From assembly GCA_945643635.1 (NCBI GenBank), contig CALZFC010000135.1, positions 352,501-416,500 of the forward strand: a DNA stretch of 64,000 nt, in the 5' to 3' direction. Positions within the stretch are counted from its first letter, which is position 1. Each line of letters begins with the position of its first letter. Position numbers and translations under genes: made by a program. The DNA comes from Allodiplogaster sudhausi. Lineage: Eukaryota > Nematoda > Chromadorea > Rhabditida > Diplogasteridae. The notes under the pieces are model-generated. The model saw only the letters and a program-made list of their open reading frames with translations, ran no database searches and was not told where the DNA came from. Positions 685 to 52,004 of this stretch are shown here, one piece after another.

Positions 685-2357
685 ATGATCAGTCAACTCG
701 GAATCTTCCATGTTGTCTTAACATGTCTTTCTTCACTTTCCTACGCACAGACGGGTTATTTATACTTCATGGCTTTCTTTAATCAGAATAATGGATTTAG
801 TGTTAAAATAATGTCCGAAACAGTAATCTTTCACTATAGCATTCATACTGAATTGATTCTTTTTTTTATCCGTTGAAATAAAAATTTTATAAAAGTAATT
901 TTTCGCTTTAATTTTTATGCTTTGAAAGAACATGAAAATTGTTTTGATCGGATAAAATGATTTGTAGATCATTATGACTTGGATCAAGACGGAATAGTGG
1001 CTGTAGATGAATTCGTCGCAGTGGCCTACACAGAATATGGACTGGAGAAGGAGGACTTGGAAGCAGTAATGGAAGAAGTGAACCGGGACAAGGACGGCGA
1101 ACTCCAGGAAGAGCAGCTCCGACTGGCGAAGCGAAGACTGAGAGAGATCCAACAGAAAAGAGCTGCTACTTGGATCGAGGTTATCGAAGCTCCTCTCAAT
1201 CGCACTCTACCAAATATTCTGTTATTAACTACATAAACACTATTTCATGGGTTTTCTAGCAATTATTCCTGTAAAGAACACTGACATGAATTTCCTGTAC
1301 TCGCATAGGAAAACGACACGAATGAGGACAACGTTTTGTCGTTCTCTGAATTAGCTTCTTTCGTGACGAAGGAAGTGAGTGCGAGATCCAAGGAAGTCAG
1401 TGAGATCTTCCGAATGGCAGACCGAGACGCAGACGGATTCCTCTCTCTTCCTGAGGCGCCCTTCGCTCTCGCGCTCATCCGTACCAAGATTCTTCTTGAT
1501 GCCAACGACTTCATTCATGCACGTTGACATTTAACATCTTTCCTGTCACAAATAAATTACGAATAGAGCGGCAGATTTGCAAGACTGGAGTTGGCTCATC
1601 CTGTTTTACCTTTCAGTCTTTGCAGAAGTTCGATAGTGACGGAAACGGGAGACTGTCCGAGGAGGAGGCGATTCTGCTGGCAGATGTGGCCTTCGATGTG
1701 GGGACAGAAGAAGCCTTGGACGCCTTCGAGAGAGTGGCTGCCAATGAAGTGGACATTGGCCGGTTGCTCGTGGACGGATTCATTCTCAGTCTCAGAGAAA
1801 GCGCAATCTTCAAGACTCAGGAAACCATGAAGGCAAGACTTCTCCCTTTGCTATCTCATCTTCCTCATCAATACAGGAAGTTGACAAGGACGGCGATGGA
1901 TCGGTCAACTTCCATGAGCTACTCGCGAAATTTCCTATGAAGAAAGTTCCATTGTTGAAGAGGCTATTCAAGCGTGTGGATATCAACAATGCGAGTTTTC
2001 TTTAACATGGTTTGTTGATCGTAACCGGCAATGATATTTTTAGGACTTGACGCTGGACGCACCAGAATGGGTACAACTCATTGGAGAAATGAGTCGAATC
2101 AAGAAGAAGGGAAGGAAATCCATCAGAAACGGAGAAAAGAAGGTTTCACGGATCTCACAGTCAGGTTTCCCGTTACTTTTATACAACGCTATCTTGGCAG
2201 ATAATTCATGTTCGGCCGAGAACTTCTCATGCCTTCGAAGGAGTGGCGCGAGAGGAAGAGAACAAGGAAGGGAGAAAGAAGAGAAGCAGTGGAGTTGAGG
2301 AAGAGATCATCCCGTTCCTGGCCAGCAACAGTCTTCTTACTCAAAACAATCAAATGA
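685..2357 (+). CDS. Secreted multi-EF-hand calcium-binding protein (7 exons)
   Basis: Exon 1 (from ATG 685) encodes a hydrophobic signal peptide ending near SLSYAQ. Further exons are 968-1179, 1309-1518, 1617-1832, 1877-1990, 2044-2142 and 2241-2357 (TGA). EF-hand loops seen in order are DLDQDGIVAVDEF, NRDKDGELQEEQ, DTNEDNVLSFSE, DRDADGFLSLPE, DSDGNGRLSEEE and DKDGDGSVNFHE, so about six loops, with a basic Arg/Lys-rich C-terminus. The layout (signal peptide, many EF hands, no other domain) resembles calumenin/reticulocalbin-type or other secretory-pathway Ca2+ binders, but I see no HDEL-like retention signal and the family assignment is inference. Three of its six introns (1519, 1833 and 1991) start with GC rather than GT; each joins the flanking exons in phase. 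Confidence 0.8.
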
Positions 2358-5350: not shown

Positions 5351-6339
5351 ATGAAAAGAAGTCTTAGCTGGTTGTTGTCCCTCGTCTGTTGGCTGTCGCA
5401 GGCCGATTCAGTCCAGTTCCGTGTTCTCGAAGGTGCTCCTCGCGGATTCCTCCTCGGCCACGTCCTCTCCCCTCCTGCTCCTTCCAACCAAGTCAACTTC
5501 TTCGTTGCATACTCGGATTCCACTGCTGAAGAGGTTCCTCCCATTCTATTTCCATCTATCCCCTTATATCATGAAAAAATGGTGGCATCACAAATAACAT
5601 TTATATGCCCTTCATACACATTTATTTCTGTTGTATTCGCAATTGCTATATAATTTGTCGATCAAGAATTCTTGGCCCCGAGCAGAGGGATCAAGGAACT
5701 TTCGGCCGGCTTTTGGGCTCTCAAAATAGCAGGGTGTGAAAAAGCGGGCCGAGTCAGAGTGGTCACATTATTCAATAATGTAATAAATTATCATTATTAT
5801 TAAGAAGAATTAATGTCTGCTGTCCGAAGAACGCGGTGAGAGGGCAAAAAGCCGCGCCTTTGTTTAGCCTCCATTTACTGCACCAAACCCAGTTGGAATG
5901 GCCGAGATGCTCGAGGTCGTCCTTCCTTCCCTGCTGCCTTTGCTCTTTCATATATATTTCTCTCTGCCTAGCTCCCTCTTTATCGCTCTCTCTCTCTCTC
6001 ACTGTCGCTCTCTCTCCCTCATCGTCTCTCTCTTTCCTTTACTTCCCCACTGTTCACATCACCCAACGCGCCACGTTCCTCTCTATCCACTTATTGTCCA
6101 TGTGCAAGGAAGTCTTCTGAGCCGGACAGTCTCGCGGTGAGAGTAAAGAAGGGAGTGGAGAGGCAGGAAGAGAAGAAGGAAGAGGGGAGAGAGAGCGAGA
6201 GGGAGAAGGACAGAGATAAAAGGGTAGGATTGCGGCTAGTTGCAGCTGAAATCTGGGTGTTGTCGACATGCTGATCTAATGTTGTCCACCAGATTGGCAT
6301 GGTCCGTCATAACCCCCTGGGGCATCTCTTTTCTATCTG

Positions 6340-6375
<36 letters not shown>

Positions 6376-8577
6376 GCTCCGCTCACCCTCTCTCACGCCC
6401 TTTCTGGTGACCTTCTTTCCTCTGCCAGAATTGCATTGAGTTGGGGGTGTCACCCTCCCGCAATCGAAGGCGGAAACATAATGAAATCTTACGTCTTACT
6501 CAGTCTGCTTTCGCCTCTCCCTTCTTTTGGTTCGAAAGAGAATGCAACAATCGAGTTGTAATGATTGTTAGAACAGAACAGGAGATTATGATGAATTAAA
6601 GAGCTTTTGCAGGCCCTTCATGTGGACGAGCACACTGGAGAAGTTCGTGTGGTGGGGGAAATCGACTTCGAGGAGCAGCGTCGCTTCGAACTCCTCGCCG
6701 TTCCTCTTGCAGGCGGAGAGGGAATTCCTGTCTCAGTCATTGTTGAGGATCTCAATGACAATGCTCCCGAATTCCCGAAGAAGTCTATGATTGTAAGAAG
6801 AAAACGGTAATGAATGGATAGAGGAGGCCTTCTTTCAGCTGCAAATCTCAGAAGTGGCCCGCCGCGGCTCCCGCTTCGCCCTTCCCTCAGCTGTGGATGG
6901 AGACTCCCCTCCCCTCGATGTCCAGAGCTATCGCATTGTGCGGGGGAATCTCAACAATGTCTTCCGACTGCAGACGAGAAGGGTGGAGGGAGGAGGATAA
7001 GAGGGAGGGGGGCATCTACTTCTTGAACTGGAAGTTATCGGGATGCTTGACCGCGAGTTCCGCGACCACTACGAACTCGTGATCGAGGCTCGCGATGGAG
7101 GAGATCCTGCTAAGTTTGAGCACTTTTATATCAGAGAGATTCACTCATTTTAATTATTCAATTTTTAAACATCATAATACTTTTCTATAATCATATTTTG
7201 TAGAACTACATACATACATATGTACATATGTACTAAATAATCTTCCAACATATGTTCAGGGCGGGGGAACTGCGGGTGGAAATAGTTGTGCTGGACGTGA
7301 ACGACAATGCTCCAGTGTGGACAGAGAAGAGCGGGAAGTACTCGATCCTCCTGTCGCCCACCTCCATGGCTCTTCTTTCTCAGCCAATTCTATCTCTCTC
7401 TGCTACCGATTCGGACGACGGTGACAATGGAAGAGTCTCCTTCAGACTGGCAAATGTTGGTTTCTCTTTCCCGGCAGATCATCCGTCCATCACTCTGCTT
7501 ATAGACCCGTGCAGATGTTTCATCCTTCTTCTCGCTCTCTCCGAATGGTTCTCTCTATGCCTCCCCATCAGTGCCGGAAGGTGATTTCGAGTTGGTAGTG
7601 GTAGCTTGTGATGCTGGTCAGCCGTCCCTGGAGACGTCGGCTACGGTGTCAGTGGTGGTGGAGAGGGCGGCCAGAGAAGTTCCTTGTCTTGACATTGTGT
7701 GGCTGACTCCGTCGGCAGAGGCAGCCATCTCGGAGAACGCGACTCTCGCTGCAGTCGTCGCCCGTATCAGCCTCACTCCTACTGACGACTCTCTGTTAGA
7801 CATCAACTACTTTTTAAATTTAGTTTGTTCAATTCTTATTTTTCAGTTGCTATTTAATTTAGCCTTGACATTTTGCCTTTCTTAGACAAGTGGAGATGAG
7901 TGGCTGCAGCAGTTTGTGCCTGCGAGAATCGGATCACACGAACGTGTTCCTCTTGTCACTCTGCGCCCCACTCGATCGAGAAGCCGTAGCCGAGTACCAA
8001 CTCGTGTTCGCTCTCAAGGAAGGCTCCCATCTTCTTCTCGAGCACCCTCAGCTCCTTCAGGTGCCTCCACATCATTTATACCCATCTGAAAGTGGTTGCT
8101 TCCCAATAGATTCTGGATGTTAACGACCAACGGCCGTCATGGCCATCTCGGGCAGTGCGGATCTCGTTGAATCGGTCAGCAGATGAGGATGTCGATTTGT
8201 CCGCGATAGACGCGGATGAGGGGGAGAATGGCCGTCTCTCCTATTCCATCCACGGCACAAACCTCGTGTTCATCGACCAGGAGAGCGGCCGCATCAGACT
8301 CGCTGAAAATGTTGGTCTTGAATCTCTTTGAGCAAGAAGTTTAAATAGATCATTTAATTGTCCCTTGTTTCTTTGTGCTGTTTTGCAGGAATGTCCGAGA
8401 GATTCCCCGCTCGAGTTTGAAGTGGAAGCCAGAGATGGAGGTTCCCCTCCACTGAGTTCTCGCCTCTCAGTCACCGCTGACATTATCGGCCTCCCTGGCT
8501 GGGAACCCCGTTGTTCTTTCCCGCTCTACGAAACCACAGTTCGAGAGGACATCGCCGTTGGTAGTTGTCTTCTTGAG
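5351..8577 (+). CDS. Dachsous-like giant cadherin, exon block 1 (signal peptide and first cadherin repeats)
   Basis: ATG 5351 opens a clear signal peptide (MKRSLSWLLSLVCWLSQADS), followed by the first ectodomain. Exon 1 ends at 5533 and exon 2 starts at 6613. Cadherin calcium-binding motifs follow: VEDLNDNAPEF near 6745, LDREF near 7055, VLDVNDNAPVW near 7290, DSDDGDNGRVSF near 7405 and DADEGENGRLSY near 8208. The block ends at 8577 with a GT donor. The protein is an adhesion receptor; tandem cadherin repeats bind Ca2+ at their junctions. An in-frame TAA lies at 6998-7000 in a GGA-rich stretch just before a well conserved repeat, so it is an error, a lesion or a tiny unseen intron. The intron at 7445-7570 could not be resolved cleanly. 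Blocks 2 and 3 are the same gene. Confidence 0.88.
5534..6612 (+). other. Cadherin intron 1
   Basis: The intron begins GT after GAAGAG and ends TTTTGCAG before the exon encoding ALHVDEHTGEV. It contains (CT)n tracts near 5985-6030 and 6338-6372 and a GA-rich tract near 6180-6215. No other gene is seen in it. Confidence 0.6.
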
Positions 8578-8670
8578 GTAAATATCTATATATTTTATCA
8601 TCACATTTTCATCGCAATTACTACTACACAATGTTCCGTTTCTCGTTCAGTGAAAAGTAGAGCAATAATT

Positions 8671-11600
8671 CTATGTTGCCTTCTTCTTTACACTGGCTGA
8701 TCTTGCTCTCTCTGTGGTTGAATCTCGTGAGACTGGCCTCCCCTTCGATGGTGGTCTAGCAGAGGCATCTTTAGCTGAGGGGGGCCTTGTCTCTTTGGAA
8801 GGAGAGCGACCCCTCGAGGGTGGTCGATCCTTGGAAGAGGGTCTTGTTGCCTGCTTGGAAGAGGGTCTGGACTGGCTGGGGGTAACGGTCTCGATAGTCT
8901 TCTCCTTTCCCTTGCTGCTTGGCCTCTTCTTTGGCTGCCCCGTTGCTGGTCTGGCCACTGCCTCGTCAAACATCTCCAAGAGATCATCTCCTTTTGCTTT
9001 CTTCTTTGTCGATTCTCCACTGCTCGTTTTCAACTGCAACATCCAGAGAATTGTCTCTTTCTATCGCTCTTTCTATATCTCTCTACTCTCTCGCACTCTC
9101 TCTCTCTCGCGCTCTCTCTACTCTCTCTCTCTCTCTCTCGCTCTCTCTCTCTACTCTCTCTCTCTCTCTTTCCCTCTCTCTTAATCTTCATTCGTATCGA
9201 TTACACTGTTCGTAAGAATCCTTCAAATGACAGGATTCATAGTGCTCGAGACTAAGAATAGTTTGCATCTGAATTCACTCGCATTCGTCACTGCCAATGG
9301 CACCCAGGATTTCCCAGAGGAGACATCCAATGAATTTTTGAGCTCGAAGCACTTGGCCAGAAGATTCAGCTGTTTCTTTGGCAGTGAGAGGGAAGGGGCT
9401 GACATGGCGGTTGATAACCTCGGATAACTTTGAGCTCAGACTCTTCTTGTTGGCCGCCGCGTCAATGCTCGTCACGGAATCCGCATTCTCCTTCTCAAAT
9501 TACAACTATCGATTAGCTAAACAAATATAGCTTATTTCAGTCATTTTCCATCATTTATAATACTGCACTTAAGAATAATTCAGTTCAGTCACTGAAAAGA
9601 ATTGCTCTTTTCTTGTCTCTTGGCAGGACGCTTCGAAGTTCGAGAGCTTATTCCAATCTTTTTTTGTAGTAACCTATTTGATAAAAATAAAAATAAGATG
9701 AAGGATGCCTTAGCTGCGTCTTGGTATTCCTTCATCTCGCTCTCGTCGTCAAAGAGGGCGAGCTGGAACTCCTCGACATTCTCCCTTGCGACAACGGAAG
9801 AGAGTAATGCCATTTCATCCCCTTTGTCCTCGACTCCTCCCTCTCCCCCTCCTCCGCCGTGTCCCTTTCTTCCTCCAGCTCGGAAGATGTTCTTCCCCAG
9901 ATCAGTCTTGCGATCTCGGCCTCCGAGCGAGAGATCGTCCTTCTACATCAATTATGTAGAAAAGAAATGAAGTTGTGAAATGTTCTTTTGAACCTCGATC
10001 TCAATTCGCTTTGAGGGCGGCCGCGTGGAGAATTCAGAACTTCTGGCGAGAATTCCGTCCTCGAAGTATTTGATGCAGCCGGGCGAGTCCGTTCTCTCAC
10101 TCACAACCAATTCTTCAGTCGACAGAATGAGATGACCATTCTCTGCCTGTTTCTTCTCTCGGATTAGAATCGACACTTTTATTCGACAATCCTGTAAATG
10201 GTCTGAATACGATCCCATGGCTTTCCTCTCAAAGGACTGCTCCTTTAGACGTACACAATTATATTAAATCTAAATATGTACATCTAACAAATATGCAGTT
10301 GAAAATGAACCTGGAAATAGGAGAGTAGCGTTGCGCGCATCACATAAAATTCCCACAGCTGGCAGCGACGATACGCTGATATCATCTGAGGAGAGGGAGG
10401 GTCATTGAGAGGGGAGGAGAGAGGGGGAGTGGGAGGGTCATTGAGAGGGGAGGCGAGAGGAGGAGAGGGAGCGTCATTGAGAGGGGAGGAGAGGGAGGGT
10501 CATTGTAAGAGGGGGTGGGGAGAGATGAGGAGTGGGAGGGTCATTGAGAGGGGAGGCGAGAGGAGGAGAGGGGGGTGCATTGAGAGGGGAGGAGAGCGGG
10601 GGAGAGGGAGCGTCATTGAGAGGGGAGGAGAGGGAGGGTCATTGTGAGGGGGGGGGGGAGAGATGAGGAGAGGGAGGGTCATTGAGAGGGGAGTCGAGAG
10701 GAGGAGAGGGAGGTGCATTGAGAGGGGAGGAGAGCGGGGGAGAGGGAGGGTCATTGAGAGGGGAGGAGAGGGGACGAGAGGGAGGTGCATTGAGAGGGGA
10801 GGAGAGCGGGGGAGAGGGAGGGTCATTGAGAGGGGAGGAGAGGGGACGAGAGGGAGGGTCATTGAGAGGGAAGGCGAGAGGAGGAGAGGGAGGTGCATTG
10901 AGAGGGGAGGAGAGAGGGGAGTGGGAGGGTCATTGAGAGGGGAGGAGAGCGGGGGAGAGGGAGGGTCATTTAGAGGGGAGGAGAGAGAGGGAGTGGGAGG
11001 GTCATTGAGAGGGGAGGCGAGAGGGGGAGTGGGACGGTCATTGAGAGGATAGGAGAGAGGAGGAGAGGGAGGTGCATTGAGACGGGAGGCGAGTGTCGGG
11101 GTTGTTTCTGAACCGGCCGGCAATGGGGAAGCTACCGTTGCCATGACGAGAATGGCAGCTTACGCATTGCCAGCCAGTCTCTCAGAGAACAGCCCAGGCT
11201 GGGAGAAGACAATCTAAAAAGATTCATCTATTCTGTGCGCACCATTTTGTGGGCCTTGTCGAGGAGAGAGTGGATGGAGTTGTCATCCGAGGAGAACAGA
11301 GCAGAGATACCATCCAGATGGTTTGCCGTTAGAGTTAGGAGCTGCAAGTCTTTTCCTATACAATCACATTTCAGATAGAAAAATACTTACATGTTCCGGA
11401 GAAACAAGGTTTTGCAACTGGTATTTAAATATCATCATCATCAAGTCGAACAGCTTATCCATGCTGAAATGGAATAGATCACCAGTTTATTCGCACATAC
11501 TCATTCTTATTTTTAGTAAATGACTTTGTTTGAAACGAATCACATCCTGGAGAATTAGCAGAGAAGAGAAAAAGAAAGAGAGAAAAAGAAAGAGAGAGAC

Positions 11601-12247
11601 AGAGAGAGAGAGGGGGAGAGAGAGAGAGAAAGGGAGAGAGCGAGAGAGATAGAAGGGGATAGAGCGAGAGAGAGAGATAGCGAAAGAGAGAGAGAGCGAG
11701 AAAGGGAGAGAGCGAGAAGAGAGAGAGAGGGAGAGAGAGAGAGAGAGAGTGATTGCTAACCTCGTGTCATTAAGTCGCATTATGGAAGAGTGGGCCAGTT
11801 GAGTAAAGATTTCCTTGAGTTTGCTCTTGGATATAATTGTATTCATTCGGAAATAGACACTGAATGCATCCTCACTGAACATGGCACACGCAATTTCAGA
11901 GAGAACTTTGTCCGCTTTCTTCTCTCCGACGCTCTAAACACAACATTTGTACTCTTAACTTTGCTAGTGGTGTTGAAATTGAGACGGGGGGGGGCTGGAT
12001 ACTTTCCTTCTTGAAGTTCCTATTTTCTCGCATGAATTCGAAATAATATCAATAATTACATTAAATCGACAGCCTTCATGGATGTCTTTCAGACGTTGAA
12101 TATAAGAAGAAGAAAATAGTGCGAAAAGATACTTAACTGTGATATGGCGAGAGAATGGGAACTGACGACGAGTCGCTGCTCCAGGATGTAGAGCATCTCC
12201 GCCCCCATGTTGATGTACAACAAGGGAAGCACTCGTTGCGTTGCCAT
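8671..12247 (-). CDS. OSCP1: OSCP1-like protein, nested antisense inside a cadherin intron
   Basis: The start (12247) reads MATQRVLPLLYINMGAEMLY, the conserved N-terminus of organic solute carrier partner 1. Approximate exons: 12138-12247, 11761-11933 (KLKEIFTQLAHSSIMRLN), 11391-11463 (MDKLFDLMMMIFKYQLQN), 11243-11341 (TANHLDGISALFSSDDN), 10311-10385 (MRATLLSYFQ), 9994-10191 (DCRIKVSILIREKK), 9709-9942, about 9600-9670, about 9235-9480 and 8671-9033. The last exon carries the family's C-terminal KGDDLLEMFDE motif, extended by a basic Ser/Pro/Lys-rich tail of about 90 residues; vertebrate OSCP1 ends soon after this motif. OSCP1 family proteins are intracellular and linked to organic-solute transport and to cilia. 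The whole gene lies in the cadherin intron 8578-12806 on the opposite strand. A one-base frame change is needed near 9380, and the junction of exons 1 and 2 is out of phase as I assigned it. Confidence 0.86.
9050..9182. repeat. (CT)n-rich microsatellite
   Basis: Imperfect CT/TCTA-rich run directly upstream, in OSCP1 sense, of its last exon. It is also within the cadherin intron. Confidence 0.8.
10384..11095. repeat. Purine-only minisatellite in an OSCP1 intron
   Basis: About twenty degenerate copies of a roughly 36-38 bp unit built from GAGAGGGGAGGAGAG-type purine blocks separated by a TCATTGAGAG or TGCATTGAGAG spacer. It fills nearly the whole OSCP1 intron 10386-11242. Long open frames on both strands here (Arg-Gly-Glu or Pro-Leu-Ser repeats) are by-products of the repeat. 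Confidence 0.85.
11560..11752. repeat. (GA)n-rich tract in an OSCP1 intron
   Basis: Interrupted GAGAGA/GAAAGA repeat between OSCP1 exons 2 and 3. On the OSCP1 coding strand it is pyrimidine-rich. Confidence 0.8.
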
Positions 12248-12534
12248 CAAGCAAAAGGACAGCAACTTACTAAGCACCGTTTCACGCCTGCCGCTGCTCC
12301 TTCTCTAGCCACTCTCCTCTTTCCGAACACTATCTCGTCTCTCTCCACTTCATCCACCTTGTTCACATGGCAACGGCAGTCTGGAGACGGCTGCCCTGAA
12401 ATCTCTTCTCTCGTCCGAATTCTAACACTCCTTTTGATAAGATAGCTCATTTGTATTCATCCAAGTATAACAGAAGACATCCATTTATATCCTCATTTGA
12501 AGAACATCCACCCACCTCCCGCAAAACTGCTTAC

Positions 12535-12612
12535 TTACATACATATGTATGTACATTCATATGTACGTATGTACATATGTATGGATGTAAATATAAACAG
12601 GCATATGTGTAA
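12535..12612. repeat. ACAT/GTAT palindromic repeat
   Basis: Alternating TACATA and TATGTA units, including TACATATGTATG, that can fold back on themselves. Similar short clusters occur at 7200-7235, 31360-31375 and 55062-55115. Confidence 0.6.
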
Positions 12613-12806
12613 ATAAATACATTGGATGTCCGATGAAAAGTTTTCTAAAACAGGGAAGATATAGAACGAAACTCTTGGAATTAGATAAGAGAATAGGGGG
12701 AGCAAGTCAAATGGGAAGAAAGAAATAGAGAACTGAATATAAAATTGGAGTCCTTTCAAGATAAAGATATCGCTTTTTCGTTGGAAACGCCCATTTTTTA
12801 TTACAG

Positions 12807-15800
12807 GTGTCTGCTTGGAAGGACGAGAAGACATGTGAAGAAGGAGAAGAGCGAGGGAGAATTCGCTACTCCTTGAGAGAGTCCACGAAGTCCTTCTCTG
12901 TGGACCCAGCGACCGGACGTCTTTGTGTGGAAAGATCTCTCGACTACGAAGAAAAAAGAATTCATCGGCTCTCTGTTCTTCTTTCTCGCGAGGGTACAAC
13001 TCCAGTCAAACTTATGCGAAAGCAATGAAATAATGGCAGGATTCAACGAGACTGCAACTTGCGGAGTGAGTGTTCGAGTAGAGGATGTCAACGACAACTC
13101 GCCCGTCTTCTCTCCACTCCTCTACAACGCCTCCTTCCTGGAATCCGAAGTGACTGAGTCCTCGATTCTTCTCCTTCGTCTGGCTGCCTTCGATGCTGAT
13201 CACGGCGCTTTTGGAATGGTTCTCTATTTCACAATCTCACGCTCTCTGCCTGCCTCAAACTCCGTCAATTTCCTGTGATTGCAGGTGAAGTACCGTCTCG
13301 GGTCCCCCTCAGAGTTCTTTGAGGTGGATGAAAAGACTGGAGCTGTCCGCAACCGTCGCCGTCTCCCCCTGGGCGTGCACCACTTCGAAGTCGCAGCCCT
13401 GGATGGAGGCGGGAGACAGAGCGCAGAAACTGTCAGAATTATTGGTTGCACTTCAGGATCTTGTTTATCCCTGTGGTCGATTTACTATCTTTTGAAGAAC
13501 AGAGAGTGAGTACGCGTTAAGGCGGTGGTGAACGTGGCGGTGGAGAAGTCGAGCGAGCCGCTGCCTCGCTTTGTCTCCTCTTCTCCGAAGCGAGTCACGA
13601 CTTCTGAAGATATGCTGCCAGGTATTGCCATCGGATCCGTCGAGGCTATGGCCACTGGAGGAGATCTCTGCTGTACTCGATCTACTCGGGAGACCCTCAC
13701 CATCTCTTCGCCATTCATCCTCTTTCTGCCAAGATCACTGTCGCCAAGTATTTGGATTCCGACAAACACCAGGATCTTCTCATCAATGTTAAGGTCTTTA
13801 ATGCCCACGTCTGCATGAAGAATAGAATTGTATAAGATTTCCTTCAGGCGTATTCCAAGAAGGGAGTGGCTGGGTACTCTCAACTGCTAATTCACATCGA
13901 GGACCACAACGACAACTCGCCCACCTTCCCCTCTGACTCGGTTGATGTCCATTTGCGAGAGGATCATCCCCTTGACAAACCTTTCTACGCTCTAGATGCC
14001 ATGGATCGCGACCGTGGCAAAGTTTGATACCTTTTCCACGTTTAAATACATCTTATCGTTGTTTGATGAAGATGAACAATTGAGAATGGAGAGATTTCGT
14101 ACTCGCTGCTGTCTTCTTCTCCGCCGGGTCCCTTCATAGTCCACCCTCTGCTCGGCCAGCTCCGCCTCTCTGCCCCCCTCGACTACGAGACAACCCGAGT
14201 GTACCGCCTTCTCCTTCGTGCTGAGGATGGCGGAGTCCCTCCAAAGAGAGCCAACATCACTGTGATCGTCCATCTCATCGATGTCAATGACAACCGTCCA
14301 CTCTTCGAAAAGGATCAATACCATACCATGGTCTTTTCCTTTGTTTGGACTCAAGTTGTAAGAATGGAAGAGTTGAGGTGGTCGAGAACTGTGTGCAAGG
14401 GACGAGCTTGGCGAGAGTGGCAGCGACGGACGCGGACTCGCGTACCGGAGGAAGAGTGGAGTTCTCACTCGACAACTCGCAGCAGACTCTTCCTTTCTCC
14501 ATCGACTCTCGCTCCGGACTCATCTTCACTCGACTTCCAATCGATCGGGAGAAGAATCCCTTCTTCAATTTCACTGTCATTGCAAGCGACAAAGGAATGG
14601 TGAGAATGAAGAGTCGATGATGTGAGAAGGAATGTCTGATTCAGCCAAGACAGTCTTCTTCTGTCCCAGTGAGAGTGACTGTGCTGGATGTGAATGACAA
14701 TACTCCCTCTTGCTCTTCCATCATTCCTCTCACAGTTACGAGCAATGCTGACCTTCGACAGTCAATTGGCACGTCCTATCCACTTTTTCACGTCGTACTT
14801 ACCATTCGTCTATATGCATATTTCCTGTTTGAATTGACAATTCCTAATAGAGAGAGATATATAGGAACAATAGTTGCACTGGATCCGGATGACGGAGAGA
14901 ACGGAACTCTCATTTATCGACCGCAGCAACACAATTCATTCTTCCTCGTCAAGACAAACGGTCCGCTGAGAGAAGTCTTCAACTCTATTTCGAAGACTTG
15001 TTCAGGGGAAGTGTTAATTCGTCGCCAGCTGGCACAGGAGGAGGGTCATCATCTCCAGATGGCCGTCGTTGTTTCCGATGGGGGAACTCCTCCCAAGTCT
15101 ACTGTGTGCCAAGTAAGGACACATATCAGCCACTAAGCGATGCAGACTCGGAATGTACAGATTTCCATTAACATCTCGGAAGGCGAGTCTGCAGTTTTGA
15201 TTGGAGATATTAGCCCCCTGGACATTGACATCCCAACCCACTGTTCTCCTCCTTGTCCCCTTCGACAATTGAATGCCACGGGAGTGGTTGAGAGGAGACA
15301 GCAGAGCAGCGGTACGATTCTTCTGGCAGAACCATCTACTATTATTTTCCAGTAGAACGGTCACCCCATGTATTTTAAGATGTTTCGCCTCATTTCTCTA
15401 TCTCTTCAAATGGAATGATCTCTCTCGCATCTCCATTGTCACTGAGAAGTGTGCGGAAGCTGACAGTCGTTTTGGTGGATGGAGAGGGACGCCAGAAGAG
15501 GATGACTTTCCGTCTCCACCCTGCCACGACAAATGTAAGAGTTGGCACTGTCTTTCGATCGACATGAGTGGATTACAGAAGGAAGCAACTCGAGTTGTGC
15601 GAGTTCCCGTGTCCACTCCGGTCGGCTCTTCTATTCTGGACCTGAGCCAAGGCCAACGGAACAGCGGAACACTAAACGATGATAATGACTTGGTTTTCTA
15701 CTCCCTTCTAAATCATGTGAGATACTCCATACTTTGTCGCAGAATGAAGCATTGTAGTGCTCCTCAGATCGATTGAAATATGTTTGCAGACGGAGATCTT

Positions 15801-17816
15801 CGAGATAGACTTAGGCGAGGCACTGTCCATGTCATCCACAACCTCGCTTTCTTCACTGAAGACATCGACGAGGCCATTGAACTCCGCTTCCGCCGCACGA
15901 ATGTGTCTTCCATGGCGAGCAGCGAGCAGTCCGTCTGGGTCGAGTTCGAGCGAGATCTTCCACTCAGACCAGTCTTCGACCTTCCTTTCACGCAGATTCA
16001 ACTGCAGGAAGACACCTCAATAGGTCAATACACTTCTCTTTTTTAATTCAATTCAATTTTTTGGTTTGCTTGTAACAATATTATCACATGGCGTAATATG
16101 AGCTGTCGAAGCACAAATAAAAGACTTATAGGATCCATAGTGGGAAAGGTGGAAGCGAAGACACCCGAGAAAGCCGCAGCAATTCTCTATCGCATAGTCG
16201 ATGAGAATGCGATCTTCTCTGCAGATCCAGCCACAGGACAAATTGCTCTCCAGAAATCTATCGATTCCTCAATGGTTAAATACAACTTTCTCATATTGTC
16301 TGATGTGAACTCGAGGTCTTGTCCAGACTCCGCGAATCACAGCAGTGGTTGTGGCCGAAGTGGAGAGTATTGAAGCTACTTCGGCTGTTCTCTTCCTGGT
16401 CAACGACACAAACAACCACGCCCCTGTAATTATCAGGTGCAGCCAATCTTCTCTTCTTCTCCAATTCTTCCTTTCTCAGTTCTCAAACAATCCGTCTTCG
16501 TGAAGAGGGCGCAGCTGGTGCTCCGTTTCACTACGTCGTGGCAAGGGATAACGATGTGGGGGACAACGGGCGCATTCGATACTTCATCCAGAGCAACCAT
16601 TCCGAGATGTTCGCTATGGATGAGAATACAGGTCACCACTACTGTTTCTCTTCTTTATCCTCCTCTGCACACGAGAAATACGATGGCAATAGCGAAGTCG
16701 CAATATCATAAAGTTTAAGTGGGTGCTTACCGTCTATCATAGGGTTGGAGTGAGTGGTACTTACCCTCTGACCTGTGGCGACGACAGAAAATACCGGCGC
16801 TATCGCCACTTTCTCTGACACAACGAAAGAAACTCACTGTGTATCTCATGGTCAGATCACTCACATCTACTTCCACTTTTGTCATTGGTGGTAGATGTAA
16901 GTGTTATGAGTTGCTTACATGTGGTTGAGATGGGCGTGGCTTAAGCCCAGTGCTGAATGTTCTAGTACCTTGAAGGAGCGCTGTCTCTGCTGTCCCGTGT
17001 TTCATCAGACCTTTCTATTGTCGTTCGAGCTGAAGATTGCGGGACTCCGTCCCTTTCCACCCAACAAACCTTGTTAATACAGGCGAGTCATCGCAACTAT
17101 AAATAAAGAAAAGAAAACTTAGAGTTCAGGTGGAACATGCGAATTGGCATTTCTTTGACCGCGCCACTCACTGGGTTCGACTGCATTCGTCTCATCCCAA
17201 GCATATTCTCTATACTTTTCCTACAAACAGTCAGTGGCTTATTTAAAAGGAAATTATTAATATGAAAAGCTATGATCTATTTTTCATCGTTAAGAATCTG
17301 TTCGTCTTTCTGTGCAGCCGGAAAATATCCCATTTCGTCTGTTGGATGGAGAACTCAAAGTGGATGGAGCATTATCCGAGAATAAATACATCATAACCGG
17401 TAGCTAAAAAAAATTGAATGCCAAAACTAGAAGAACAATTTCAGTGCTGGCAGAAGAAAAAGGGAGCGGAGAAAGTGACTGGATGGCCCTGACTGTCACA
17501 GTGGGGGACACTAAGCCCCCGCAACCGAAGGTCTCCTCGATGTCTTGTCATTCCATCGCTATTCCGGAAAATAAGAAGATGTCAAATATCAAGCAAATTG
17601 TAGCGGTCGGACCGAAAATGAATGCAACTTTTCAAATCGAAGGTATTTTAAAATTCTTTTCCAAACATGTAGAACCATTACCTCTTTTCAGGCGGAAATG
17701 AGTTGAACCTTTTTCGAATCGACGAACAATCAGGAGTCATCTCTTGTGATGAACTGGACAGAGAGAAGAAGTCTCATCATCTTCTTGTCATTACGCTCAC
17801 TGATAGAATTAATACC
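12807..17816 (+). CDS. Dachsous-like giant cadherin, exon block 2 (middle cadherin repeats)
   Basis: Starts after TTACAG at 12806, in phase with block 1. Calcium-site motifs in order: VEDVNDNSPVF (13080), IEDHNDNSPTF (13900), LIDVNDNRPLF (14275), VLDVNDNTPSC (14680), DPDDGENGTL (14885), NDTNNHAPVI (16402), DNDVGDNGRIRYF (16550) and LDREKKSHHLLV (17755). About 11-12 repeats are present, some degenerate. Introns are tiny: 15113-15145 is 33 bp, and one near 14334-14365 is about 32 bp. The intron 17083-17129 starts GC. The block ends at 17816 before an 8.3-kb intron. Frame must change by one base near 13660 (between MATGG and LLYSIYSG) and near 15813 (between IFEIDL and RGTVHVIHN); both flanks are well conserved, so these are lesions or assembly errors. 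Confidence 0.88.
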
Positions 17817-18289
17817 GTTAGCACCATGTGTTGAAGCCCACAGAGGCGAGTATTAGTAAAGGGAAGAATTATTTGGACCTCACTCCACATTACACTATGG
17901 CGCCAGTTTAAAAAATGAAATTGATCAGCAGTGGATGCTGACAAATGGCTTCAGATTACTTTGAATCTGATTCCTCGCGTAACTTTTTGTTATTATTCTT
18001 CATAAATTTGTCGTTAAATATTCGAATTGATGTCCGTAGATGATTTGGAGCGTGTTTCTGACGAGAGCGAGTAGAATTAGACTGGATAAGAGCGCCGTGC
18101 TCATGTCGAATGATTTCGTCCTGTTGTTTGCAAATCTGAATGAGATTGACGTTTGAATGTTCTTTCAAGTTATTTTACGATGAACATAGTTCGTGATGCG
18201 AAGTGTTGCATTGAATGTACTTTAACCATATCATTGAAGTCTCATTTGTCAGGTTCTTCGCCTTCTTTTCGCCTTCTACGCTGTGAGAA

Positions 18290-19080
18290 GAGTTGCTCTC
18301 AGCTCGAGCTGGAGAAGCCAGTCGTCAGGTTGAGCGTGGTATGTGTTACTCATACCATTTAGTTTCATTAAAATTTTGTTGTGCACAAAGACTAGATAGG
18401 AGTGCTACATCATTTTGAAGAAAACTTTATTGTAACCCTATGAATGGCTCACGTTGAATTTGGTCGTTGTGTTTCCAAATCTGAATGAAAATGGAATGCT
18501 TTAAAGTAAAAGTATGATTTGCATAGTTTGTGAGGAGCACTGTTCGATATGCAATGAATGCACATTTCGTAATATGAGTTTCTTTTCATTTTGCAGAAGC
18601 TTCATTAGTCGATCGAGCAGTCGGTCGCCGAACACTGCGAAAGTGGGAAGAGGTGAGCATCTATTATATAACTTGTTGCCAGTTTGTTATAATAACAATA
18701 ACCTATTTTTTGTGAGCTACGGTTTTATTAATTCCTACATCATTTTGAAGAAAAGTTTGTTGTAAGCCACAAATGAAAGGCTTTTGTTCACTATTGCTGG
18801 TTTAGTCGTTTATCTACGCATTTCAAGGGTCGTGCACACTTCTATTTTAAAACGTCACGACTCTTGTATTAAACTGTTTCTACAAGAGCCATATTTTATT
18901 AGTTATAAGCCGCAAATGACTGGGTTTTTTTGCCTATTCTTAATGTTTTCCTTAGAATTTTTTCAAGCGAATACGAGTTTCGTCATATTTGACAGGAACA
19001 ACGTGTAGAGAGGGAAGCTGGAGAAGGGAGCGAATCGTCTGCTGGTGGAAGAATGAGCAGCCCGACCACCACGAGGAAGC
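18290..19080 (+). pseudogene. Candidate upstream exons of the host transposon
   Basis: Three short open segments with plausible splice sites: 18250-18330; about 18599-18652 (after TTTTGCAG, reading EASLVDRAVGRRTLRKWEE, before GTGAGC); and about 18997-19082 (after GACAG, reading EQRVEREAGEGSESSAGG, before GTGCGT). They lead toward the open frame at 19381. I do not recognise a domain. They may belong to the older transposon in this intron; the link is inference. Confidence 0.3.
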
Positions 19081-19569
19081 AAGGTGCGTATTTCTTTACT
19101 TTTCAGCAATCGTTACAACAGAACTCCAACGTTTTCTTCTTCTTTTTCTCAAACTTGGCCCAGGGGTTATTTGGCACGGGGGAACAAGAATTTAACATTC
19201 ATTTTTTAAAAAAAGTTGCAGTACCTTTTGAGGAAATATATTTTTGGCTTAGATTGCGTTGTAAATCTCGCTAAGGGGGATATTTGGCACGAGGAAAAAA
19301 TTTATAAAACATTTGGGGTTACATATTGGCTGTAATTTATTTAACTTTTTTTTGCAGAAATCACACTCTAATACATAAACATGAATCAGATTTATAGTTG
19401 GATCGGGCAGGGTTGTGGTTTGTGTGCTCATCACGAGCAAAGAAATGCAGCTCTTCTTAGACATGTCGAGAGCCTGAATGCAACATTGGAATCCAAAGAG
19501 CGGGAAATTGAGAAACTAAACACAACAGTCTCGTCATTGAAGGGTAGATTAAAGAAAAAGATGGAACAT

Positions 19570-19572
19570 CTG
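19570..19572. repeat. CTG target-site duplication, left flank of Harbinger copy 1
   Basis: CTG directly precedes the terminal inverted repeat and recurs at 23951-23953 directly after the other end. Confidence 0.75.
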
Positions 19573-20011
19573 CCGTGCTATTAATCTAGGAAGAAAACTG
19601 AAAACAGAGCTGAGTGAAATATGAACGAGCATATGTAAAAAGATCATGCAGGTTATGCACCGGTTTACTATGGAAAATGGCTGAGTTCAGTCACATTTAC
19701 CCTTATCCTTTGCGTATCTTGGTATATGTTTCAAACTGCGCTTACCAAGAAAGTTCGCTAAAGTTTGTGACTCTGACACGAGAGAGTAAGCAAAAGTGAG
19801 AGAAGAAAACATTCTAAAAAATTCTACTCACTTTTGCTCTCTCAGTTTTGCACACTATTTCGGGTCAGAAAAGTGACACAACTAAACGTCCAAGTTAACG
19901 ACAGGATTTTTTACGGTACTTGATCAGAGTGCAAAGATATGATTGTTGCTATTCACTATCCGTTGCCGCTTTGTATCCTCGTATAATATATCTCAATTTT
20001 TGTTTCAGAAC

Positions 20012-22259
20012 ATGCCGAAGCATCTCTCCTCAGATGAGAAAGAAGTCGTCTTAGAAGAAATAGCGCGCTTCCGAGAATACCTCATCGAAGGAAACAGCAA
20101 CCGACGTCCTGGCGCCAATTCGGCAAGAGACGGCGCATGGCAAACAGTGGTCGATCGTGCGCGAGATCGGCTTGGGAATAGCGAGATAACAGTGACTCGC
20201 TGCCAAAGGATCCTGCGCGACTCCCTTGCCACCACCAAGCAGTACTCAGTGGACGAAAGCCGGTTGAATTTTACTCTGCTGCGTTAAAATGTCATATATA
20301 TAATTCGGCTGATTTTAGTTACAGAGGAGCAACAGGTGGAGGCAGGTCGCTGGATGTTGAGAAGAATCTTGAAGCTAGATTTAATGCGCTAATTCCTGCT
20401 GAGAGGGAAATTATTGGTCTGTATGGCAAAACAGCCGCCTTTTGTGGAATCACTCCTTATGGTGAAAGTATTGTTCCGCTCTCTCAGGTTGGTAAATCTC
20501 GTGTGTTCATGTTTAACTAAATTTGGTTCGTTATTTCAAGGAGAAGGTGGCGAAACAAGCGATAAGAAAGCAGCGCACACGCCCCTTGCAAGATGAGCAT
20601 AGCTCGGATGCCGTCGAGAATAGCGGAACAAGTACTGTTGCCTTCAACTCTCAGGTTTTATGTCTCAATTACACTTTTTTGGTCGGATTTCATGCTAAAT
20701 AATCTAACTTATCGTCAATTACTTTCTTTTTGCGATTGTTGTCGAAATATCTCGAGAAACTTGGCTCTTCTAGAATCATTTCCTGGGAAGTGCGGCAAGG
20801 AGGCAGCGAAAACGCACGTGGGAAGAAGACGATATGTTCCTTGCCGTTGAAGATCACGTGGAAAGCTCGTTGGCTCGATCTCAGGTTTTTATTTACCCAT
20901 GTTTTTCGTTGGATGTCAAAGAAATAATGGAACATTTCCTGCACTTGCTTTCTTGTTTGGTTCTTTTCGAAATATGCCAAGAAAAATGGATATTTCCAGA
21001 TGAATTTGCTGGGAAACACGAGAAAGCAACGAAGGCGCACTTTGGATGATCACGAGGATTTGTGTGGCGGCGATGATGAATTGGAAAGCTCTTTAACTGG
21101 ATCACAGGAGGTTCTTATATACTCATGTTCTTTCTTCGTTATCATTGGGAATGATGGAACTTGGTTGGTTGTCATTGAAGTTCCCTTAATTGTTCGGTGG
21201 ATTTGGAAGGATGTTTAGAAACGTGGTAATTTCAAGAACTAGTTGCAGAAAAATACACTGAGAAAGAAGCGCACGTTCTCTTTGGAAGATGACAATGTTT
21301 TCCCAGCCGGCGACATGGAAAGTGCGGTGGTGAAAACTTGTTTTCTAAGTTCTGTTGCCTCCTTTTTTAACAGATTATTTCCCATTTATTTAGGATAACG
21401 AGGGATTTCACGAACCAGGCGTGACGGATTCCTCCAGTCACAACCCGAGAAGAACCGCAGCATCGGAACGCATGGTGCGTGAAAAGACCTTCGAAATGCT
21501 GGAGGTGTGTTTATTCTTTTACTTAAAAAAGAACATCTTGCGATTAGTCTTATAATTTTGACGTTGAAAACTTAAAATGCTTCTGTAGGCACAACGGAAA
21601 GCAGCCGTGGCGACTCAGTCCTTGGCGAAAGATGGTTCGGTGTACTTGCGAAATGCTTCAGCAACAGTTCGTGAGATGGGAAAGGATTTCAAAAGGGTAA
21701 GAAAACCTTTCACTGATAACTTGTTCGTAATCATGCATTTGATTTAGTCTCTGCGAATGGAGCGAGAGTGCTTCATTCAGTCGATGAACACCATTGTAAG
21801 CTCGCTCGCCGGGCGAAACTTTGTTAGTTCTGTTTTTTATATAGATTTCAATGGCGGCCTTGTTATAACAGCAGTTATTAACAGTTTTAATGTCCTTTTC
21901 CAGTCTTCCATTGCTGACACAACACAGGGTGTTGAGAATGATCAGCAGGCATCTCACGATAATACGGTTGCACTTTCATTTCATTTTATTTTATTTCCTT
22001 TTTCTATCCTTGATTATTCCTTGATTTTAAGTTTGTTTCTTTTAATTAAGTTGAAATATTAAACTGTGGCTTAACATCGTAGGTACTCCTCAATCGTGAA
22101 GTAAAGCGAGAGGTGATCGCGCCCGATGAATCAGCGGAAGACGCTAACTCCTTCGTCGACGTTGTGGGAATGTCCTCTGTCTCGGACATGCTGGAGTTGC
22201 AGAATGGCAATCGTAACACTTCAGACCGGGCTGCTTCGAGCCCTTCAACTCTCCTGTAG
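20012..22259 (+). CDS. Harbinger accessory Myb/SANT-like protein, copy 1
   Basis: ATG 20012 (MPKHLSSDEKEVVLEEIARF) opens a Myb/SANT-like helical DNA-binding domain with W in GAWQTVVDRARDRLG and a following RCQRILRD. Approximate exons: 20012-20262, 20319-20487, 20541-20654, 20774-20884, 21000-21110, 21249-21329 and several more to TAG 22259. In known Harbingers this partner binds the transposon ends and brings the transposase into the nucleus. Exons 3 to 6 are related to one another: each has an Arg/Lys cluster (RKQRTR, RRQRKRT, RKQRRRT, RKKRT) followed by acidic residues, and two end ESSL..SQ. The C-terminal part includes a mixed-charge segment near MERECFIQSMNTI. Confidence 0.85.
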
Positions 22260-22522
22260 CTAATTTTTATCTATTTTTGCGTTTCTTGCTACTTCCGCTT
22301 TCTTTCTTTAGAATATAGGTTGTATGCTTTTTTCTTCCCCTTTGACAGTTTCCACTGACATTCTTCATTTTCTCCCTATTCTTCTTTTTATCACAGAATC
22401 ACAGATTCAGCTAGGTTTTTTCAATTATATCTTATCTGATCACAGAGACAACTAGAAATTGTTTATCAAAATTAGGAAGTTATTTTGAGAAAAAATGGCG
22501 TAATAAGAATAATATAATAGAT

Positions 22523-23786
22523 TTACAGGTTGGTAGTCATGTGAGTTCGGGGGTCCATTCCGGGTGGAGGATGTGCCATTGTAGCAAGGCGGGGTCGTGG
22601 GATGGGGTATCCGCCCGTCACCTTCTCAATGATGTAGTTGTGTAAGATGACGGAGGCCATGATGTACTTGATGGCAGATTGTGGTTGCACACGAAGTTGG
22701 CTGCGCAGACACCCGAACCTTCGCTTCAACATTCCGATTGCCTGTTCCACAAGGACCCTTGTGTGACGGTGCTCTCGGTTAAATTCCTCCTCGGCTGGGG
22801 TTTGTGGATTTCTATATGGGGTGACAACAAAACCATTGCATGCGAATCCAGAATCACCAAGTATGACATATCCGGGAGGAATTGCTCCCTGCGCGAAGGC
22901 ATCAGCAAGTGATGACTGCCTGTAGATGTACGCATCATGGCAGCTTCCGGGGAATCGACAGTTACAGTATACGATGCGTCCGACCGCATCGCAAACAACT
23001 AGGACATTGATGGCAGTCCACCCTTTTCTTGTACGGTACTGCCAAGGGGAGTCCTCAGGAGCCATGATGGGGATCAGCGTCCCATCAATCAACCCGATGA
23101 CAATTAAAATTAACTATTATGAAGCTACCGCATTTCTTATTCTTGTTTCCTTGTTGTTCTATGAACATCTTACTTGCAAACCGAGTGCGCCTCGAGAATG
23201 CATCTGCTGCTCCAGCGCAGTAGAGTGGGCTCGTCAGTGGGAAGCGGACGTGTGTGTCCCAGAGCATCTGCATGCCATCCAGAGTTCGTGCAAGAACATT
23301 TACAACAGTAGATTGACAGCATCCAAACAGATCTGCCAACACCGACTGTGACGCATTCGTAAACAACGCCCGCAGAAGAATCAGAACCTGTTAAATCTAC
23401 TGTCTTTCTCTCTCTCTCTCTCTCTATTTCTGTCTGTCTGTCTCTCACTCTGTCTCTCTCCGTCCCTCTCTTTCTGTCTCTGTCTCTCTCTCTGTCTAGC
23501 AACAACTATCCCCTTTTCACTATTTCTGCCTCATTCGGAGTGCTCATCTTGCCTGGTTATCAACGGAGATCGCCCAATCGCCCATGGAGTAGTGGTTGAG
23601 TGCAGAAATAAGGTGGTTAACAAGCTGTCTCACACGGGCTGGCCTCATGCGAAATCGGTCATGGAGAAGCCTCTCGTTAGGCGCGAAGAAAACCATTGGA
23701 TGTATGCGGACATATGGGAGGTTCGGATGTCGACGCCGTATTGGAACCAATAAGTTGTTCATGTCTCTCAACAGTAATGTGTACAT
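22523..23786 (-). CDS. Harbinger DDE transposase (HARBI1-like), copy 1
   Basis: Three exons encode about 342 residues. The N-terminal exon (23553-23786) begins MYTLLLRDMNNL; the second carries a helix-turn-helix-like VLADLFGCCQSTVVNVLAR; the third carries the DDE_Tnp_4 core. Catalytic residues seen: first Asp in GLIDGTLIPI, second in ILGDSGF, Glu in VEQAIGMLKRRFG. The intron 23388-23552 starts with GC (CAG then GCAAGA) and contains the element's own CT microsatellite. The enzyme cuts and pastes the element together with the accessory protein. All frames are open, so the copy looks potentially functional. Confidence 0.92.
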
Positions 23787-24869: not shown

Positions 24870-25781
<912 letters not shown>

Positions 25782-26083
25782 TATATTTTGTGTTCAGTAT
25801 AAAGAACTTTTAACGTTGTCATGTGCAAAAAATGCGGCTGAAACATGCTGCCAATTCCCGCACTCTGATTTTTCTCCAACCCGCTCGCTCTGTTCGAGCT
25901 GGGCCCCGTTCTTGGCAAATTGCCAAGAACGGCCAAGGTTGGCAATCTGCCATCTTGGTGTGCCCGAAAGGGGCGGAGCTACGCAATTTCCTTTTGACAA
26001 CACATCGTGCGTTAGTTAAGAGTTCTTTTTTGGTTTTCGAAAGGCCTATGAATTGTGAAAGTAATGTGTCTTCTCTCTCCTAG

Positions 26084-49577: not shown

Positions 49578-49627
<50 letters not shown>

Positions 49628-49778: not shown

Positions 49779-49823
<45 letters not shown>

Positions 49824-49824
49824 T

Positions 49825-49862
<38 letters not shown>

Positions 49863-49886
49863 TGCAGAGAGCGAGAGAGAGGGCGA

Positions 49887-49952
<66 letters not shown>

Positions 49953-50568: not shown

Positions 50569-50735
50569 CTGCCGTGCTATTAATCTAGTGAAAACTGACG
50601 CCAGTTTGGCCAAAAGTTAATGAAGATTTCATTTTGAGCTGAGTGAAATTTCAATGAGAAGAGACCTTTGACATTTCCTTATTTTTTTGATGTTTTCTAT
50701 AAAATGTTTGTTGTCTTTAACCTTAGGAAATATGC

Positions 50736-52004
50736 ATGTACACATTACTGTTGAGAGACATGAACAACTTATTGGTTCTAATACGGCGTCGACATCCGAA
50801 CCTCCCATATGTCCGCATACATCCAATGGTTTTCTTCGCGCCTAACGAGAGGCTTCTCCATGACCGATTTCGCATGAGGCCAGCCCGTGTGAGACAGCTT
50901 GTTAACCACCTTATTTCTGCACTCAACCACTACTCCATGGGCGATTGGGCGATCTCCGTTGATAACCAGGCAAGATGAGCACTCCGAATGAGGCAGAAAT
51001 AGTGAAAAGGGGATAGTTGTTGCTAGACAGAGAGAGAGACAGAGACAGAAAGAGAGGGACGGAGAGAGACAGAGTGAGAGACAGACAGACAGAAATAGAG
51101 AGAGAGAGAGAGAGAAAGACAGTAGATTTAACAGGTTCTGATTCTTCTGCGGGCGTTGTTTACGAATGCGTCACAGTCGGTGTTGGCAGATCTGTTTGGA
51201 TGCTGTCAATCTACTGTTGTAAATGTTCTTGCACGAACTCTGGATGGCATGCAGATGCTCTGGGACACACACGTCCGCTTCCCACTGACGAGCCCACTCT
51301 ACTGCGCTGGAGCAGCAGATGCATTCTCGAGGCGCACTCGGTTTGCAAGTAAGATGTTCATAGAACAACAAGGAAACAAGAATAAGAAATGCGGTAGCTT
51401 CATAATAGTTAATTTTAATTGAGATGTCATCGGGTTGATTGATGGGACGCTGATCCCCATCATGGCTCCTGAGGACTCCCCTTGGCAGTACCGTACAAGA
51501 AAAGGGTGGACTGCCATCAATGTCCTAGTTGTTTGCGATGCGGTCGGACGCATCGTATACTGTAACTGTCGATTCCCCGGAAGCTGCCATGATGCGTACA
51601 TCTACAGGCAGTCATCACTTGCTGATGCCTTCGCGCAGGGAGCAATTCCTCCCGGATATGTCATACTTGGTGATTCTGGATTCGCATGCAATGGTTTTGT
51701 TGTCACCCCATATAGAAATCCACAAACCCCAGCCGAGGAGGAATTTAACCGAGAGCACCGTCACACAAGGGTCCTTGTGGAACAGGCAATCGGAATGTTG
51801 AAGCGAAGGTTCGGGTGTCTGCGCAGCCAACTTCGTGTGCAACCACAATCTGCCATCAAGTACATCATGGCCTCCGTCATCTTACACAACTACATCATTG
51901 AGAAGGTGACGGGCGGATACCCCATCCCACGACCCCGCCTTGCTACAATGGCACATCCTCCACCCGGAATGGACCCCCGAACTCACATGACTACCAACCT
52001 GTAA
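50736..52004 (+). CDS. Harbinger DDE transposase (HARBI1-like), copy 2
   Basis: Exons 50736-50969, 51135-51348 and 51424-52004 join in phase to 342 residues. The first intron begins GCAAGA after CAG and ends TTAACAG; the second begins GTAAG. The DDE triad is present as in copy 1 (GLIDGT, GDSGF, VEQAIG). The final exon ends THMTTNL then TAA. No frameshift or stop is seen. Confidence 0.93.

Follow-up and report, generated by a model that had tools for sequence, protein, structure and literature searches.

Frequent GC-AG introns and two classes of U1 gene suggest a permissive 5' splice site in the nematode Allodiplogaster sudhausi

How often do introns of the diplogastrid nematode Allodiplogaster sudhausi begin with GC instead of GT, and could the U1 small nuclear RNA (snRNA) have a part in this? 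The question is raised by a window of 64,000 nucleotides (contig CALZFC010000135.1 of assembly GCA_945643635.1, positions 352,501 to 416,500; the positions below are those of the window). From its letters, an EF-hand gene, a cadherin gene, and a Harbinger transposase had been predicted to carry GC-AG introns, at roughly one intron in five. We find GC donors at high frequency in the window and in an unrelated gene, PRP8, elsewhere in the genome, and we find two classes of U1 gene, which differ at the nucleotide that faces donor position +3. We think it somewhat probable (about 0.6) that the 5' splice site is permissive in this species, with GC-AG introns tolerated by canonical U1 and with a dimorphism at U1 nucleotide 6 that frees position +3.

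To place introns, we used a spliced protein-to-genome aligner whose donor dinucleotides can be set freely and which does not score the donor flanks. GC is present as written at all nine donor positions listed in the original prediction. The EF-hand protein is most similar to proteins from Pristionchus mayeri and P. fissidentatus (49% identity). If only GT donors are allowed, the alignment reaches 648 half-bits and has one frameshift; if GC is allowed as well, it reaches 741 (a gain of 93) and has none. The model has no stop and no frameshift in aligned codons, and its alignment gaps are near 2121-2133 and 2293 only. The three predicted GC introns are gapless against both Pristionchus proteins and hold up. 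The introns are as follows (the slash marks the start of the intron, and half-bits are the score lost if that donor is forbidden):

1180..1308, plus strand: GT donor, gag/GTTATC, from spliced alignment to two Pristionchus proteins
1519..1625, plus strand: GC-AG intron, cat/GCACGT ... TTGCAG; gapless IH/KFDSD, 17 half-bits
1833..1876, plus strand: GC-AG intron, aag/GCAAGA ... ATACAG; gapless, 28-30 half-bits
1991..2043, plus strand: GC-AG intron, aat/GCGAGT ... TTTTAG, within a calcium loop; gapless, 26 half-bits
2143..2200, plus strand: GT donor, GTTTCA, from spliced alignment

As a control, we allowed other dinucleotides. In the EF-hand gene, adding AA to GT alone gains 79 half-bits, as compared to 93 for GC, and the best addition on top of GT and GC is again AA (+22 half-bits). 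This gene by itself requires introns at these places and is best fit by GC, but it leaves room for other donors. Also, it had been claimed that any nearby GT would put the next exon out of frame. This is incorrect: there are in-frame GTs at 1976 (near 1991) and at 50958 (near the Harbinger donor at 50970), although the use of either would remove conserved residues.

The cadherin is most similar to proteins from P. mayeri and P. fissidentatus (47% identity). We used these two proteins and a four-sequence profile as templates. Allowing GC donors adds 85 half-bits with P. fissidentatus, 96 with P. mayeri, and 95 with the profile. We also forbade each GC donor in turn and recorded the loss in score and the site that the aligner fell back to.

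5534..31380, plus strand: cadherin (dachsous/Fat-like) gene; 42 introns on which the three templates agree, 36 with GT and 6 with GC
14769..14864, plus strand: GC-AG intron, ttg/GCACGT; three templates, 8-11 half-bits above a GT alternative at 14761
17083..17129, plus strand: GC-AG intron, cag/GCGAGT; three templates, 7 half-bits above a GT alternative at 17073
27714..27759, plus strand: GC-AG intron, cag/GCGAGT; 16-17 half-bits lost if forbidden
27947..27992, plus strand: GC-AG intron, gag/GCATGT; 30-31 half-bits lost if forbidden
28981..29025, plus strand: doubtful GC-AG intron, ctc/GCTGTT; 8 half-bits, and a GT at 28984 is also in phase
29569..29652, plus strand: probable, weakly supported GC-AG intron, caa/GCAAGA, past the membrane segment; 8-14 half-bits, with a GT alternative at 29584

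The predicted introns at 27714 and 27947 are supported: forbidding either one costs 16-31 half-bits, and the aligner then chooses another GC site. The fallback is another GC for 28981 as well, and it is a GT for 14769, 17083, and 29569. The prediction at 17083 is less secure, as all three templates place it there but the GT at 17073 is just 7 half-bits worse. Three GC donors had been overlooked, namely 14769, which is supported, and the weak sites 28981 and 29569. Adding other dinucleotides on top of GT and GC gains up to 26 half-bits (for TT), as compared to 85 for GC over GT, so single GC calls in the cadherin are somewhat noisy. Three more candidates were rejected and are not in the counts below: 12988, which appeared only with a template from Haemonchus, and 26204, which appeared with both Pristionchus proteins at a gap in the Pristionchus sequences and costs 1 half-bit to forbid, both judged to be alignment effects; and 5256 (one template only, 2 half-bits).

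PRP8 gave us a gene that was not chosen for its GC donors. We searched the assembly (352 Mb in 382 contigs) with PF08083 and found two diverged copies, on contigs C112 and C49. That they lie on different contigs suggests a genome duplication or separate haplotypes. A recent whole-genome duplication is reported for A. sudhausi (PMC12325724), and as a lead, the two copies would fit it. With a hand-typed human PRP8 sequence as the template, 1999 of 2305 aligned residues are identical (87%), and each copy has 46 introns and aligned codons that are free of stops and frameshifts. GC donors account for 5/46 introns in one copy and 4/46 in the other, and allowing GC gains 119 and 85 half-bits in the two copies. 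At amino acid 892, one copy has aag/GCACTG and the other has aag/GTACTG, which is a natural switch between GC and GT at one junction. Of 14 other dinucleotides allowed on top of GT and GC, 11 leave the score of both copies unchanged. Among the remaining three, AT gains 1 half-bit in one copy, AA gains 1 half-bit in the second copy, and CG gains 12 half-bits in each. We attribute the gain for CG to the junction at amino acid 216, so a GC donor there is doubtful.

For an overall rate, we pooled 93 introns from the C112 copy of PRP8, the cadherin, and the EF-hand gene. The C49 copy, the Harbinger introns (one GC and one GT), and an OSCP1-like gene were kept out of this count. GC donors are found in 14/93 introns (15%, 95% interval 8.5-24%; p = 7e-13 against 1%), or in 11/93 (12%, interval 6-20%) without amino acid 216, 28981, and 29569. 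The window genes alone have 9/47, or 7/47 without 28981 and 29569, so the predicted rate of one in five describes the window and is above the pooled figure. The PRP8 copies taken alone exceed 1% (p = 1e-4 for 5/46 and 1e-3 for 4/46). Against 3.5%, the excess is less clear (p = 0.02 and 0.08). The reported mean for animals is 0.98% (PMC7072748), and 0.6% is reported for C. elegans (PMC5906903), so GC donors are about ten times as frequent as the animal mean, both in the window and in PRP8. Among the records that a literature query for Pristionchus and GC-AG turned up, there were only a paper on Heterorhabditis and one on Pratylenchus cellulases.

GC-AG introns are reported to have a compensated donor pattern in which the rest of the site makes up for the mismatch, and the GC donors of A. 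sudhausi follow it. A purine is found at +3 in 12/14 GC donors and in 32/79 GT donors (Fisher's exact test, p = 0.0027). The other contacts lean the same way: G at +5 (12/14 vs. 46/79, p = 0.07), A at -2 (12/14 vs. 44/79), and T at +6 (10/14 vs. 31/79). These flanks suggest that the GC donors are recognized by canonical U1. They also qualify the original view of a relaxed 5' splice site in this lineage: the high rate of GC in the window and in PRP8 supports it, but position +2 is not simply relaxed, as the GC donors bear extra contacts to U1.

The GT donors are unconstrained at +3. Among 79 of them, +3 is A in 22, C in 19, G in 10, and T in 28, which does not differ from the intron interior (p = 0.39). 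At +5, in contrast, the preference for G is strong (p = 9e-20), and 61 donors have G at -1. GTT makes up 35% of the GT donors, whereas the figure for both human and C. elegans is about 16% (PMC8865678; p = 2e-5). In PRP8 alone, GTT is found in 12/41 GT donors (p = 0.02 against about 16%).

In the pairing of U1 with the donor, C8 faces +1, A7 faces +2, and nucleotide 6 faces +3. It had been proposed to inspect the 5' end of U1, and there the genes fall into two classes, which differ at the base that faces +3. We scored the best 42 of 3647 candidates with the Rfam model of U1 (RF00003), so 42 is a lower bound on the number of genes. All 42 exceed the gathering score (the lowest has 98.8 bits, as compared to 69.5). 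Among these at least 42 matches, 20 belong to a class with AAACUUACCUG and 22 to a class with AAACUAACCUG; as read from their first bases, 20 start with AAACTTACCTGG and 22 with AAACTAACCTGG. The second class, which we call A6, departs from the canonical recognition sequence ACUUACCUG by an A at nucleotide 6. A search with the pattern AAACTNACCTGGCTG gave 52 matches, with T at nucleotide 6 in 22, A in 29, C in one isolated match, and G in none; the reversed pattern, as a control, gave 1 match. The 42 Rfam matches fall within these 52, and the other ten (2 T, 7 A, and 1 C) are known from 15 bases only. A6 thus accounts for 22/42 Rfam matches and 29/52 pattern matches.

Both classes keep the features of U1 genes. 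Across 20 of the 42 copies that we aligned (12 of them A6), 97.8% of the cells in the expected helices are paired, as compared to 40-47% in slid controls. Seven base pairs have changes on both sides, and the covariation score was reached by none of 500 shuffles, although the two classes share ancestry and these changes represent few independent events. The Sm site ATTTTTGAG is invariant in the 20 aligned copies, in both classes, and all 42 copies that we read have a similar element, resembling ATAGGRTGC, about 37-45 bases upstream. We found 21 divergent pairs of U1 genes with 5' ends 259-637 bases apart, on contigs C27, C35, C144, C283, C285, and C287, and every pair has one T gene and one A gene (probability of 4e-6 under shuffling). 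In 16 of the 21 pairs, both members are among the Rfam matches. It seems that a single unit was amplified to give these pairs. Judging from these sequence features, the A6 class looks like a maintained gene set. In the titles and abstracts that we searched, in a partial literature collection, we found no report of a diplogastrid U1 variant.

We propose that about 10-15% of introns would be ordinary GC-AG introns of the major spliceosome, and that their donors would be tolerated owing to good pairing of their other positions with canonical U1. If both U and A are present at nucleotide 6 in the U1 pool, donors with A, G, or U at +3 would all find a partner, so that selection on +3 would mostly be lost and GUU donors would become common. 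GC donors lose the pair at +2 and would therefore keep the purine at +3 and the G at +5. We infer that the A6 class is probably transcribed, enters U1 small nuclear ribonucleoproteins (snRNPs), and serves donors with U at +3, and that the relaxed background lets GC donors persist. The link between the two U1 classes and the frequency of GC donors is indirect and is the weakest step. A bolder version is that there are two parallel U1 snRNPs, with the A6 U1 as a working second reader of GUU donors, and that the split freed +3 across the genome and let GC-AG introns rise about tenfold. We consider this tentative, with the odds leaning somewhat against it.

Several observations weigh against the proposal. 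Only three genes were sampled, and two of these were picked because GC had been seen in them. A6 forms no pair with a C at +2, which means that having two U1 classes does not by itself account for GC donors, and the two may occur together by coincidence. The looseness is not limited to the position that A6 faces: in GT donors, +6 matches the background (p = 0.69) and the bias at +4 is weak (p = 0.02). Neither class of U1 pairs with C at +3, and this base is no rarer there than the background predicts (19 seen and 14.2 expected). GT donors with T, C, or a purine at +3 do not differ in their other contacts to U1 (Mann-Whitney p = 0.34-0.60). Looseness is apparent at the 3' splice sites as well, where 20/93 introns have a purine at -3 of the acceptor (AAG or GAG). 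Because the U1 copies share recent ancestry, the 21 mixed pairs are not independent events. Finally, relative to the Pristionchus orthologues, the cadherin frame has two in-frame stops (TAA and TAG) and two frameshifts (at 6998-7000, 13661-13673, 15812, and 28721-28723), so decay, polymorphism, or mis-assembly may affect a portion of the window.

This last point could be extended to all of the GC donors: if the window genes were pseudogenes or badly assembled, GC would be a T-to-C change at dead donors. The damaged cadherin and a nearby RPN1-like stretch that looks broken would fit this. However, the EF-hand gene and both copies of PRP8 are clean in aligned codons and still have 3, 5, and 4 GC donors, and decay would yield other donors too, which are hardly needed in PRP8. 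We consider decay improbable. An artefact of alignment or annotation, which we rate marginally lower still, has a precedent: in Heterorhabditis bacteriophora, a first-published GC-AG rate of 8.9% was an artefact and became 0.8% upon re-annotation (PMC5906903). False GC calls arose from single homologues in our analysis as well (12988 with Haemonchus and 26204 with both Pristionchus proteins), CG fits the amino acid 216 junction of PRP8 better by 12 half-bits, and AA donors regain 79 of the 93 half-bits in the EF-hand gene. Against this, both orthologues of the EF-hand gene give the same gapless junctions, the 87% identity of PRP8 allows little error and other dinucleotides are hardly used there, and the compensated pattern at GC sites is not part of the alignment score. 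As far as homology can show, the GC donors are confirmed as real. Minor (U12-type) introns, whose donor motif is RTATCC, are a very implausible source of some of the GC introns. We found no point in favor of this idea, in an analysis that did not search for the U11 and U12 snRNAs; none of the 14 GC donors resembles RTATCC, and their flanks follow the U1 consensus.

A more serious rival is that both the GC frequency and the free donor positions are the passive outcome of weak selection, due to a small population and a recent whole-genome duplication, with the A6 U1 as a side branch of little effect. The genome has two diverged copies of PRP8, the use of +6 and of C at +3 is free as well, the 3' sites are loose, and A6 cannot pair with GC, all of which fit. 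On the other hand, copies with A6 are at least as numerous as those with U6, their structure is kept, and 21 of 21 pairs are mixed, which argues for maintenance; and the strong preference for G at +5 and -1 shows that selection on donors is not weak everywhere. We view weak selection as possible, and as roughly half as probable as a permissive 5' splice site with a U1 dimorphism.

How does this permissive splice site compare to known systems? The nematode Globodera rostochiensis and other Heteroderidae also have GC-AG introns at well above 1%: the rate in G. rostochiensis is 3.46%, which was called the highest of any nematode in 2016 (PMC4901422). In heteroderids, the match to the consensus is at least as good for GC donors as for GT donors (PMC4901422), and the GC donors of A. 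sudhausi are likewise compensated. In contrast to the 3.46% of Globodera, our rate is 12-15% of 93 introns, and the portion of the Globodera report available to us mentions no change in U1 (PMC4901422). In the copepod Eurytemora affinis, which uses GA-AG introns, one of the five U1 copies has U instead of C at position eight, and this changed recognition base is proposed to widen donor use to GA (PMC7072748). In A. sudhausi, the change is from U6 to A, faces +3, and affects about half of 42-51 copies. The idea that variant U1 genes widen the set of donors is already known from Eurytemora (PMC7072748).

In the tunicate Fritillaria, splice sites are relaxed genome-wide: 95% of introns do not follow GT/AG, there is a duplication of U2AF, and the two versions of U1 have identical 5' ends (PMC13326754). 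In A. sudhausi, GC is a single added donor and the U1 5' ends differ. The authors of the Fritillaria study note that divergence at the 5' end of U1 did not provide the route there (PMC13326754); judging from gene sequences, about half of the U1 genes of A. sudhausi seem to have followed it. U1 genes that differ from the standard are also described in human (variant U1 snRNAs) and in C. elegans (the suppressor sup-39). Those of C. elegans are laboratory-selected mutants, whereas A. sudhausi has a balanced natural gene set.

If the bolder version is correct, then the rules for splice sites were altered via the sequence of U1 itself, unlike in Fritillaria. In such a genome, many genes will be broken by automated annotation in which GT is expected. 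A balanced natural dimorphism in U1, together with a matching loss of constraint in the donors, would make the evolution of splicing rules directly testable, in a group of culturable worms with genetics (the relatives of Pristionchus).

The Harbinger-type elements (DDE_Tnp_4) are two inverted copies of 4.4 kb, at 19572-23951 and 50571-54956, that are about 99.75% identical. At this identity, the GC donors at 50970 and 23552 represent one event, and the element was recently active. The predicted GC donor has a gapless junction, but its score does not single out GC: with a hand-typed HARBI1 sequence as the template, GC gains just 3 half-bits and AT gains 8 more, so the site at 50970 rests on the gapless junction. 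A search of the PDB with the Harbinger protein gave no match. A further GC donor had been considered likely in a minus-strand gene at 8600-12300, which we take to be OSCP1-like and which sits inside a 4.2-kb intron of the cadherin (8578-12806).

50970..51134, plus strand: Harbinger transposase GC-AG intron, cag/GCAAGA ... TAACAG; gapless AISVDNQ/VLILL against HARBI1
23388..23552, minus strand: the same intron in the inverted copy; donor from its letters, end placed by mirroring
51349..51423, plus strand: second Harbinger intron, GT donor, caa/GTAAGA; spliced alignment to HARBI1
9707..9708, minus strand: candidate GC donor dinucleotide of the OSCP1-like gene, aag/GCATCC; from letters only, with no template for this stretch

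The orthologues of the EF-hand and cadherin proteins in P. mayeri have entries numbered 13106 and 13107, and because these are consecutive, the two genes are probably adjacent there too. The stretch at 57349-58550 (minus strand) is presumably RPN1-like (proteasome). It has one stop and one frameshift, its middle part is missing, and an expected junction falls at a CT repeat, without GT or GC; Pfam gave no match for 57349-57987. At gathering scores, an Rfam scan of the window gave no match, and a scan of ten flanking and PRP8 loci gave one tRNA. An open reading frame at 62759-63745 (minus strand) has a Phlebovirus_G2 fusion-glycoprotein domain (E = 2e-49) and is perhaps the envelope gene of a retroelement. 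At 24870-25790, there is a near-pure GA/CT dinucleotide repeat of about 0.9 kb, which reads as ER or LS in several frames.

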